From positions 1,488,001 to 1,552,000 of the forward strand of contig NZ_CP049143.1 of the NCBI RefSeq assembly GCF_011044495.1: a stretch of 64,000 nucleotides of DNA. Reading direction: 5' to 3'. Source of the DNA: Roseimicrobium sp. ORNL1 (lineage in GTDB: Bacteria; Verrucomicrobiota; Verrucomicrobiia; Verrucomicrobiales; Verrucomicrobiaceae). Position numbers and translations under genes: made by a program. How positions within the stretch are numbered: position 1 is the first letter of the stretch; every line of letters starts with the position of its first letter. Positions 18,721-58,963 of this stretch are shown here, piece by piece. The notes below the pieces were generated by a model. It made no database searches. It saw only the letters and a program-made list of their open reading frames with translations, and had not been told where the DNA came from.

Positions 18721-18765
18721 GGTGTCTTCTGGCTGTCCGTACAACGCGAAAGTCGCGCTGGTTTT

Positions 18766-18890
18766 TTAGCCGCAAAAAGACGCAAAAAACACAAAAGAGT
18801 CTGACGCTGGGTGATGACATCTGATGTGAGATGGTTCATGCCCAAGAGCCCTCATCTTTTGTGCCTTTTGCGTTTTTTTGCGGCTAATGA
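18766..18890. repeat. Inverted repeat pair, GCCGCAAAA family (locus 1)
   Basis: Left arm 18766-18798 (TTAGCCGCAAAAAGACGCAAA...) and right arm 18855-18890 (TCTTTTGTGCCTTTTGCG... GCGGCTAATGA) are inverted copies separated by 56 bp. The same family recurs at 23330-23450. The arms are oriented head-to-head and could fold into one long hairpin. It is intergenic, after sufT. Confidence 0.85.
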
Positions 18891-27427: not shown

Positions 27428-27838
27428 GGGAGATGGGGAGACAGGGAGAAGCGGAGAAGCGGAGAAAGGGAACGTGTATCAGCCAATGGCACGTCTCGTG
27501 AGCTCGCAGACACTTGAGGCGGAAGAGCGTCCGCATGGCATGCCACGTTGCGCGAAGCGCTTTGGAGTGCGTGTGCGAAGCACCGCTTTGAGCGGAGGAG
27601 TGAAAGGTCCGAACGACGCGCGGGTTCTTGAGGCTCCCGATTTCTGGACGACGGGATATTGGTGAATGCCTGGAGAGGTTTGATGCTGGCTCGCGCTGTT
27701 CAAAGCGGTGCTTCGCACGCGCACTCCAAGGCGCTTCGCGCAAGCTCGTACCTTGCTGGCTGGTTTGCTGTGAGGAGTGCTTTTCATGTCACGAGACGTT
27801 CGTTAGTGCGTGGGAGCACAAATGTTGGAGTGATGGGG
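27428..27838. other. Repeat-containing spacer inside the exporter operon
   Basis: About 410 bp between the adaptor and ATPase genes, with inverted-repeat pair B (27549-27590 and 27701-27742). I see no protein gene in it; open frames there are the repeat read in six frames. Confidence 0.5.
27549..27742. repeat. REP-like inverted repeat pair, TTGGAGTGCG family
   Basis: Left arm 27549-27590 and right arm 27701-27742 are inverted copies with 40 of 42 positions matching. The arms contain CTTTGGAGTGCG...GAAGCACCGCTTTG. They are related to the 51-bp arms that flank the RAYT gene at 58156-58963, sharing TTGGAGTGCG and ACCGCTTTG. Confidence 0.8.
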
Positions 27839-35680: not shown

Positions 35681-35853
35681 CCCTGGACTGCGTGCAGCCT
35701 GCTGCCGCTTTCCTAAAGTGCAGCCTGCTGCACGCATCACTGCGACGAAGTCGCCAAGCCTTCAGCGATGTGTCGCCTTACGAGTGAGTGTCACAATCGC
35801 CACAGCAGGCTGTGGACTCTGGAAAGCGGCAGCAGGCTGCGCGCAGTCCAAGG
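35681..35853. repeat. Inverted repeat pair E (CAGCAGGCTG family)
   Basis: Left arm 35681-35713 (CCCTGGACTGCGTGCAGCCT...) and right arm 35821-35853 are inverted, 31 of 33 positions matching. Extra CAGCCTGCTG and CAGCAGGCTG copies lie between them, giving several alternative pairings. Confidence 0.85.
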
Positions 35854-54184: not shown

Positions 54185-55162
54185 ATGGCACCGCTTCCCG
54201 TCACCTATGCCGATGTGCTCGATGCCCTGCCGCGTATCCACGCGGTGCTGCAACCCACGCTGCTGCGGAACTGGCCGGGCCTGTCCGCACTGCTGGGGTG
54301 TGAGTTCCACCTCAAGCATGAAAATCACCAGCCGGTCGGCGCTTTCAAGGTGCGCGGCGGGATCAATCTCGTGGGTACGCTGAGCGAGGACGAGCGTGCT
54401 GCAGGCATCCTGGGGGTATCGACCGGGAATCATGGGCAGTCCCTTGCCTTCGCCGCGCAGCATTTCGGCGTGAAATGCACCATCGTGGTGCCTCGCGGAA
54501 ACAATCCGGACAAGAACCGCGCCATCCAGCAGCTCGGCGCGGAGATGATTGAGCACGGGAAGGACTTCGATGAAGCACGCGAGTTCGCCACCGTCTTGCA
54601 GAAGGAGCGAGGCTATCGCTATGTGCACTCTGCGAATGAGCCGAAGCTGATCGCGGGCGTGGGGACCTTCACCTGGGAGATCTTTGAGAAGCTGCCGGAT
54701 CCTGATGTGCTGCTCGTGCCCATTGGACTGGGGAGTGGAGTGTGCGGCGCGTGTATTGTCGCGAAGCATCGGAATCCGCGAACGAAGGTGATTGGCGTGC
54801 AGGCGGTGAATGCCTCTGCGGTCGCCGAGTCATGGCGCACCGGCACGGTGAAGACGAATGAGTCCGTGAACACCTGGGCCGAAGGCTTGGCCACGCGCGT
54901 GCCGGCGGAGATGACTCTCACCATCATGCGTGCACTCATGGATGATGTCATCCTCGTGAGTGAAGAGGAGCTTCGCATCGCCGCGGCGCGCATTCTGGAG
55001 CACACACATAGTCTCGCGGAAGGCGCCGGCGCGGCGACCGTGGCTGCGGCGCTTCAGCAGCGGGAGAAGCTCGCCGGAAAGAAAGTGGCCGCAGTGCTCT
55101 CCGGTGGGAATTTGGACTTGGCGAAGTTGCCGGAGATTTTGCGGTACGTGGGGAGGGAGTGA
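54185..55162 (+). CDS. Threonine/serine dehydratase (PLP fold II)
   Basis: A 325-residue fold II PLP enzyme. The PLP lysine is in VGAFKVRGGINL, the phosphate loop is LVPIGLGSGVCGACIV, and STGNHGQSLAFAAQHFGV and SVNTWAEGLATRVPAEMTL fit the Ser/Thr deaminase class. Length without a C-terminal ACT domain suggests the catabolic type (TdcB-like) or a serine racemase-like enzyme rather than feedback-regulated IlvA. Deaminates threonine to 2-oxobutanoate. Divergent from the Gld-like operon. Confidence 0.88.
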   Translation: MAPLPVTYADVLDALPRIHAVLQPTLLRNWPGLSALLGCEFHLKHENHQPVGAFKVRGGINLVGTLSEDERAAGILGVSTGNHGQSLAFAAQHFGVKCTIVVPRGNNPDKNRAIQQLGAEMIEHGKDFDEAREFATVLQKERGYRYVHSANEPKLIAGVGTFTWEIFEKLPDPDVLLVPIGLGSGVCGACIVAKHRNPRTKVIGVQAVNASAVAESWRTGTVKTNESVNTWAEGLATRVPAEMTLTIMRALMDDVILVSEEELRIAAARILEHTHSLAEGAGAATVAAALQQREKLAGKKVAAVLSGGNLDLAKLPEILRYVGRE

Positions 55163-58155: not shown

Positions 58156-58963
58156 CGCTTTGCGTCTTGGAGTGCGGTGGCAAGCGCTAAGGCGCGACAC
58201 CGCTTTTGCCGGAGCCCATCAACTATAAACGGCAGACCGGCATTACTGGAACCTCTGAATGACTACACCACGAACGGCTTTACCAGTCGATGGATGGCTC
58301 GAAGTCATCCTTGACCTTCACCCGCCCGGTTTTGAAAGCGGTAAATCGCTTTCACTTGAGTTGGCGGAGCAGTCCGCTCGAACCACGAAGCAGAACACCA
58401 CGGATACTCAGACGCTACCTTTACCAGGCCGTGTTTGACGGGATTCTGATGCACATAGCTGAGCCGCGCGAAGTAGGACCGCTCGTGGCTCAAGAACGTG
58501 TCCCAGTGATTGTGCCAGACTTTGCGTCCAATGGTGTTGTCGTCCTGATTGACGTACTTGCAGGTTTGCTCGTGCAAGAGTCCCACGAGACCCGGCAGTC
58601 GTGACGCAAAGTCTGAGTGTGCGCAGTGTGCTACGAAGTGGTAGTGGTTCGAAAACACGGCCCATGCCTGAAGTCGCCAACCATGATCTTGGCAGTGCTG
58701 CAAGAGTGAGTCGTGGAGCATGGCGAGACGTTGCCTGCCCTGAAAATGGTGCTGCTTGTTATAAGTGGACGCGGTGACAAAGTAGGTCCCATCTTCGAGC
58801 AAGCGATGTGGGGGAGCATGTGGCCATGGTGTGGAGTTTTTGCCATCCATGAGGGAAATCTAGTGGGCTTCTAAATCGTGGCAAGACCAGTTCCGGTTCA
58901 ATCGCTCCGTTCAAAGCGGTGTCGCGCCTTAGCGCTTGCCGCCGCACTCCAAGACGCAAAGCG
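58156..58963. mobile_element. RAYT locus bracketed by 51-bp inverted repeats (REPtron-like)
   Basis: Left arm 58156-58206 and right arm 58913-58963 are inverted copies with 50 of 51 positions matching. They flank the RAYT gene at 58305-58850. Each arm has an internal stem (GCGGTG/CACCGC around GCGC-TAAG-GCGC). The arms are related to repeat pair B at 27549-27742. No target-site duplication is clearly visible, so the mechanism need not be classic transposition. Confidence 0.85.
58305..58850 (-). CDS. REP-associated tyrosine transposase (RAYT), Y1_Tnp family
   Basis: A 181-residue Y1_Tnp protein. The HUH motif is SNHYHFVAH (H69, H71) and the likely catalytic tyrosine is Y132 in SYVHQNPVKHGLV, the usual RAYT context. 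The N-terminal GTYFVTASTYNKQHHFQG is typical of IS200-like RAYTs. These single-strand endonucleases cut and may spread REP sequences. The gene lies between 51-bp inverted repeats of the REP-like family, as in REPtrons. It splits the lipid A genes lpxI and lpxB. Likely active; only family and motifs support this. Confidence 0.9.
   Translation of the reverse strand: MDGKNSTPWPHAPPHRLLEDGTYFVTASTYNKQHHFQGRQRLAMLHDSLLQHCQDHGWRLQAWAVFSNHYHFVAHCAHSDFASRLPGLVGLLHEQTCKYVNQDDNTIGRKVWHNHWDTFLSHERSYFARLSYVHQNPVKHGLVKVASEYPWCSASWFERTAPPTQVKAIYRFQNRAGEGQG

Follow-up and report, generated by a model that had tools for sequence, protein, structure and literature searches.

A REP-associated tyrosine transposase between GGAG-footed, REP-like inverted repeats in Roseimicrobium sp. 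ORNL1

Introduction

The tetranucleotide GT[A/G]G is the defining mark of REPs (PMC3686654, excerpt). The E. coli REP-associated tyrosine transposase (RAYT) TnpA_REP (4er8) comes with flanking inverted repeats, dispersed dimers and a GTAG foot; its residues W94, Q95, E100, H101 and R104 are discussed for GTAG recognition in an excerpt of PMC6006769, whereas Q95, D100 and R104 are listed in an excerpt of PMC8266576, which also holds a guide model where A3G4 selects a CT site. In Pseudomonas, two repeats in opposite orientation, i.e., REPINs, are the apparent unit of spread (PMC3116915, excerpt). TnpA_REP proteins of subclass 2.8, found in cyanobacteria, combine the motif NHYH with W[YH] and YIHYNP and with GT[A/G]G REPs (PMC6006769, excerpt). 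In TIRtrons, a RAYT-like gene (TIRYT) lies within long GTAG-less inverted arms that recur in the genome (PMC3733652, excerpt). Because REPs are defined and searched by their tag (PMC6006769, excerpt), scans built on GT[A/G]G miss repeats with other tags.

Here we describe a RAYT unit in a stretch of 64,000 nucleotides (the window; NZ_CP049143.1, positions 1,488,001 to 1,552,000) of the genome of Roseimicrobium sp. ORNL1, which is one contig of 7,957,748 bp. A preceding sequence-only reading of the window had taken the unit for a RAYT with its cognate REP and had called REPs little described in Verrucomicrobiota; they are, however, not quite absent from the literature on this phylum (PMC3733652, excerpt). 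Features are collected in Table 1, with positions of the window.

Table 1. Features of the RAYT unit and of related repeats in the window
Feature	Position	Strand	Details
Left arm	58156-58215	+	REP-like core 58167-58206, TTGGAGT-stem-TTT, family A
RAYT gene (TnpA_REP-like HUH tyrosine transposase)	58305-58850	-	181 aa ORF; NF047646, fold, alignments
RAYT residues			NHYH = 68-71; candidate catalytic Tyr132 in YVHQNP; by alignment
Right arm, inverted copy	58904-58963	-	core 58913-58952, family A
Pair B, family B REPIN	27549-27742		short hairpin GTGCGAAGCAC; cores 27564-27586(+), 27705-27727(-)
Family C REPIN	35683-35851		foot TGGACTGC; cores 35683-35711(+), 35823-35851(-)
Site of the G061 family-B RAYT unit	18745-18887		unit without in-frame stop in G061; absent here

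Results

The gene between the two arms encodes a REP-associated tyrosine transposase. NCBIfam model NF047646 (REP_Tyr_transpos) scored 82.5 bits on the ORF, i.e., 2.5 bits above its cut-off of 80, and Pfam Y1_Tnp scored 19.3, under its cut-off of 23. No further Pfam domain, HTH included, was found in the protein with a Pfam search. For an AlphaFold model built with 39 sequences (pLDDT 86), E. coli TnpA_REP was the best structural match (4er8, Z 15.2), followed by the IS608 transposase (Z 10.5). Residues H69, H71 and Y132 align with H59, H61 and Y115 of the E. coli protein and are identical in all 104 rows of the focal clade defined below. The HUH motif, the single catalytic Tyr and the TnpA_REP fold, by which membership of the RAYTs is judged, were thus all found. 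Unlike the E. coli enzyme, the protein has HYH instead of HMH, and the sequence alignment of both reaches no further than residue 136 of the 165 in the E. coli protein. With subclass 2.8 it shares NHYH and a similar length; its clade, in contrast, shows mostly H or F after the W, together with YVHQN[P/A] and GGA[G/C] feet (compared with PMC6006769, excerpt).

The arms are identical at 50 of 51 positions (58156-58206 on the plus strand, 58913-58963 on the minus strand), and inverted-repeat detection gave 60-nt arms with 93% complementarity and 688 nt in between. The sequence-only reading was hence right in placing a Y1_Tnp-type RAYT, with NF047646 passed, inside near-perfect 51-bp inverted repeats. 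It had further assigned internal hairpins to the arms and a relation to pair B, and both held in part. The hairpins can be drawn on paper and covary across loci, but the single-strand folding energy of the focal arms was no better than that of shuffles (z -1.26 and +1.14); support for the stem therefore comes from covariation. Pair B has the foot-stem-TTT frame in common with the arms, yet its stem is different and shorter, and on sequence grounds we assign it to a repeat family (B) separate from the arm family A.

The arm is not unique to this locus, and the sequence-only reading would have been given up if it were: a 77-nt arm query (E<=1) yielded at least 52 matches across the genome (40 of 83 candidate places scored). 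By pattern, we counted 46 copies of family A, 54 copies of the pair-B type, family B (exact pattern), and 53 copies of family C with its GGAC foot (up to 2 mismatches), i.e., 153 copies in three multicopy families, and the backward-read control was 0 for each of them. Among the 52 listed arm matches, 42 formed 21 head-out pairs (left +, right -; feet outward), none formed reversed or tandem pairs, and 10 stood alone at the sensitivity of the query. The repeats hence occur as REPINs, i.e., as units of two inverted repeats, in 21 pairs of one polarity. A RAYT with flanking inverted repeats that have dispersed genome copies corresponds to a REPtron. Genome-wide, hairpin tips of family A were of several types (GCGCTAAGGCGC, GCTTCAAGC, GGCCTCCCTTGAGGCC) on a constant base, and the tips frequently differed between the two arms of one dimer.

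A subset of the spacers of 19 family A dimers was related to one another, and none of the 19 matched, at E<0.01, the sequence between the arms in the two family-A RAYT units. As the spacers are unlike the interior of the RAYT unit, the dimer and not a shortened RAYT unit looks like the spreading entity. This resembles the Pseudomonas REPINs, with partly related spacers in our case, whereas foot and RAYT clade differ (PMC3116915, excerpt). On one 300-kb stretch the repeats were mainly extragenic, i.e., 29 of 33 were intergenic compared with 9.9 expected, as counted with a crude gene finder and a repeat rule that omits most of family B.

At E<=1e-10, the genome holds four other RAYT homologues. 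The closest of them (74% identical) has family-A arms and forms a second unit of the arm type. Two paralogues with 45% identity, at genome positions 836613 and 4897240, have family-C arms or a near variant with one extra loop base. No RAYT hit of the genome had family-B arms, despite the abundant family-B repeats. Several near-identical whole copies, as they would mark an IS200/IS605 element, were not present in the genome. At L037 (genome ~30 kb) we noted a weak RAYT-like match (E 0.049) with inverted repeats containing CTCCTTGGACTGTGGGC and CGGCACTAGGCTAGTGCCG nearby, which are perhaps another REP-like family.

We then turned to relatives found by protein alone in one scan of named genomes, and used the best 80 of 156. 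The frame was defined as a TGGA[G/C]T foot, at least 5 of 6 stem pairs and [ACT]TT, within 900 bp of the RAYT. TGGA[G/C]T-stem-[ACT]TT was found at 76 of these best 80 loci, with 271 copies, a few of them chance-looking, whereas dinucleotide shuffles gave 3.8 on average. With GT[A/G]G as the foot, the stem rule gave 59 copies at the 80 loci versus 64.3 in shuffles. At four loci (L053, L073, L101, L117), both the frame and flanking inverted repeats were lacking. A motif-free search found inverted repeats at 61 of the 80 loci; 59 contained GGA[G/C]TGC, one of these only after 8 nt had been added at the ends, and two were trivial. Inverted repeats with GGA[G/C]TGC were present at all four own-genome loci. 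At 20 further loci of the family, the frame occurred in 12 and a GGA[G/C]TGC inverted repeat in 19, together covering all 20. The 27-nt class of the repeat alone comprised 81 distinct sequences. By their labels, the relatives came from Verrucomicrobiota, Acidobacteriota, Planctomycetota, Lentisphaerota, Kiritimatiellota, Armatimonadota and Hydrogenedentes, plus two bins given as Proteobacteria; all relatives but L046 are labelled MAG, and individual taxon placements may therefore be wrong.

The feet of the arm type are GGAG or GGAC. Because GT[A/G]G is missing from the foot and stays at chance level around the 80 related RAYTs, these repeats are not canonical REPs. Of the RAYT and cognate REP proposed for this unit, the cognate dispersed repeats remain, but not their classification as canonical REPs. 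In the open-licence literature searched, REPs with a TGGASTGC or GGAG foot did not turn up; supplementary tables or Bertels 2017 may describe one. GGAG hits in excerpts of PMC2817692 and PMC3686654 were considered as prior GGAG-footed REPs and discarded, as they were located inside GT[A/G]G-footed sequences. The GGA[G/C]-footed REP-like system hence looks like an undescribed variety of REP/RAYT.

Stem covariation was analyzed in windows with fixed foot-TTT spacing and without a pairing rule, one per locus, and with shuffles that keep relatedness. For the short form (46 loci), 87% of the cells paired, compared with a shuffle mean of 73% and maximum of 77%, and at most 63% with one side slid; 59 both-side changes exceeded the shuffle maximum of 28. 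The long form (18 loci) showed 92% pairing versus a shuffle maximum of 82% and 17 both-side changes versus 12. Extra pair types stayed inside the shuffle range for the short form (15; mean 13.8, maximum 19) and equalled the shuffle maximum of 9 for the long form. The stem is thus compensated as in REPs by pairing and both-side changes, which lay above every shuffle, but not by pair types.

Repeat density follows the RAYT clade, with exceptions. Across the family (68 genomes), TTGGASTGCN{8,38}GCTTT matched 1735 times (backward control 223), and the 34 genomes with a close RAYT exceeded the 20 without any in repeat density (p = 2.5e-4, phylogeny ignored). Among genomes that are at least 90% complete, the median density was 4.74 per Mb where a close RAYT was present (28 genomes) and 1.03 where there was none (10 genomes; p = 3.8e-4, again ignoring phylogeny). 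Beyond the family, in 130 other genomes of the order, where a clade RAYT was called at profile E<=1e-50, an excess of at least 5 was seen in 18 of 26 genomes with a clade RAYT and in 13 of 104 others (p = 2.4e-8, without regard to phylogeny). Exceptions ran in both directions. The family genomes G027, G030, G039 and G065 had an excess of at least 10 although they lack both close and middle RAYTs, and the 13 order genomes just mentioned had an excess of at least 5 without a clade RAYT; conversely, G004, G018, G036, G047 and G059 of the family and eight genomes of the order set had a RAYT but an excess below 5.

A second set of 20 RAYTs (L159-L178; 31-38% identity) from genomes of the same family forms a separate branch. 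The focal clade comprises 104 rows, which a branch with SH-aLRT 95 separates from the rest of a quick tree; one very long row is included in this tree. By motif (mostly Y-[I/V/L]-HHNP), the second clade is nearer to subclass 2.8 (PMC6006769, excerpt). Its repeats have mostly CTTTAG or CTTCAG loops in hairpins different from those of the focal clade, and their feet, assigned by eye, were GTAG in 9, GGAG in 9 and GTTG in 2 of 20 cases. A loose frame rule picked up 9 copies at 7 of the 20 loci, which we rejected: those of L169 and L170 are GGAG-footed hairpins of the second clade's type, the others are chance-like, and TGGA[G/C]TGC was not among the nine.

Both clades differ at the columns of E. 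coli residues 101 and 104, where the E. coli enzyme has H and R. The focal protein has T118 and S121 there. Among the 104 focal rows, T occupies column 101 in 96 (S in 6) and column 104 in 95 (S in 6). The second set (21 rows with L035) had R14/T7 at column 101 and R14/K7 at column 104. Within the second clade, T101/K104 went with GGAG in 7 of 7 cases, and R101/R104 with GTAG in 9, GGAG in 2 and GTTG in 2. For residue 101 versus a GG or GT foot, this amounts to 1-2 independent pairs, i.e., few origins, and our hypothesis is that residues 101 and 104 are linked to the foot, based on few independent changes. For GGAG versus GGAC in the focal clade, the best listed raw association with a protein column (p 1.2e-5) came down to 3 independent pairs on supported branches and was set aside.

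The history of the locus was followed in G061, a genome of the same genus with 27 family A, 16 family B and 48 family C copies. There, a RAYT with 86% identity lies at the same site, with one in-frame stop that is possibly a sequencing error. The 51-nt left arm core is unchanged, the right arm core has 3 substitutions and 1 insertion, and site and arms of pair B are conserved as well. G061 furthermore carries a family-B RAYT unit, at whose site the window has one copy of an unrelated inverted repeat, AGCCGCAAAAAGACGC. A AGCCGCAAAAAGACGCAAAAGGCACAAAAG-like inverted repeat is found once at this site and twice around the G061 family-B RAYT (C1 ~698374-698500 and ~699715-699850), and recombination between such copies could have removed that RAYT. 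Two family-C REPINs of G061 are missing from the window near 55111 and 24029, where the neighbouring DNA has diverged too far for base-exact junctions. As the presence of RAYTs and REPINs differs between the window and G061, repeats seem to be gained and lost independently of the enzymes, and vice versa. Moreover, the 54 family B copies in this genome, in which the B-armed RAYT is absent where G061 has one, suggest that repeat families outlive their enzyme.

According to Pfam, the RAYT unit has an LpxI gene on one side and a Gfo/Idh-LpxB pair on the other, in line with the earlier remark that it splits lipid A genes. Disruption of an operon is, however, at most weakly indicated: LpxI adjoins Gfo/Idh within ~1.5 kb in 3 of 20 family loci, i.e., the own locus, G061 and G062, and in G062 both genes are separated by a gap of ~870 bp without a RAYT.

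Discussion

We are confident, with some reserve, that the unit consists of a RAYT and its cognate repeat in REPtron architecture, and that the repeats spread as REPINs and the gene is passed on vertically. The mechanism is probably that of a REPtron working on repeats without the GTAG tag. The RAYT would bind one folded repeat strand, recognizing the hairpin and the 5' foot TGGA[G/C]T, which stands in the place of GTAG in classical REPs. It would nick this strand, presumably in a strand-specific manner, via Tyr132 and the NHYH metal site. The repeats would then spread through intergenic DNA as foot-outward inverted dimers, likely via single-strand DNA. The RAYT gene itself would stay in place and be inherited vertically, since the same unit is found at the same site in G061. 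By analogy with the guide model (PMC8266576, excerpt), a GGAG foot would be expected to select a CT site; our guess is the C-T step at the border of stem and tail, where GC is followed by TTT.

The repeats might instead be host elements, such as terminators or protein-binding sites, that are kept under selection with the RAYT merely among them. Compared with G061, the arms seem better conserved than the adjacent intergenic DNA despite the changes in the right arm, some genomes carry repeats without a clade RAYT, and the intergenic position of 29 of 33 repeats on one 300-kb stretch (crude gene finder) would suit this explanation, too. It is nevertheless unlikely, given that, among 80 RAYTs identified by protein alone, 76 have the frame, with many different stems, and that repeats are denser where the RAYT clade is present; a host use, if any, may have come second.

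Equally improbable is a TIRtron, in which the arms would be long TIRs unrelated to REPs (Di Nocera 2013). Compared with the published description, the GGGGWSAS sequence is absent, with no GGGG in either arm, and the arms contain a covarying palindrome. Moreover, 20 of 26 TIRYTs belong to subclass 2.1 with HTH domains (PMC6006769, excerpt), but the focal protein has 181 residues and neither a detected HTH nor another Pfam domain. The likeness is confined to the long inverted arms around a RAYT-like gene, the missing GTAG and a moderately abundant dimer family as in PMC3733652 (excerpt).

An insertion sequence of the IS200 type, mobile in its entirety, with the arms as its terminal inverted repeats and the small dimers as internally deleted copies (MITEs), would account for the symmetric bracketing of the gene and for the existence of another unit bearing these arms, but is the least probable explanation, as the proteins of the two same-armed units are only 74% identical, the unit occupies the identical site in G061, dimers outnumber whole units, and the 19 REPIN spacers do not match the unit interiors, several matching each other instead.

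For the RAYT with its cognate REPINs, a wider proposal can be made, to which we give an even chance: a clade that crosses phyla owns a REP superfamily TTGGA[G/C]T-GC..GC-TTT, and the foot tracks T at columns 101 and 104 in a protein-to-foot code. The second clade, with its GTAG, GGAG and GTTG feet, is a possible natural series for foot recognition. Together with a clade of uniform tag, in which many stem variants occur with their cognate enzymes, it provides a natural experiment on the reading of ssDNA hairpins.

The distribution of the repeats along the genome is uneven. Of 132 genome matches to GGAGTGCG..CACCGC, 48 lie inside 2.52-2.82 Mb (L138, L124-L137), i.e., in 3.8% of the genome, and 33 of these 48 are of the short family B form. 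In the stricter pattern lists of families A and B, plus-strand copies are about twice as numerous as minus-strand ones. GC content and skew over 2.52-2.82 Mb do not account for the clustering. The same repeat-rich stretch contains a gene for a phage head-to-tail connector (PF12236, 336 bits; L126 15059-16759 on the minus strand, genome ~2.595 Mb), possibly as part of a prophage, and GC skew in this stretch is strongly negative.
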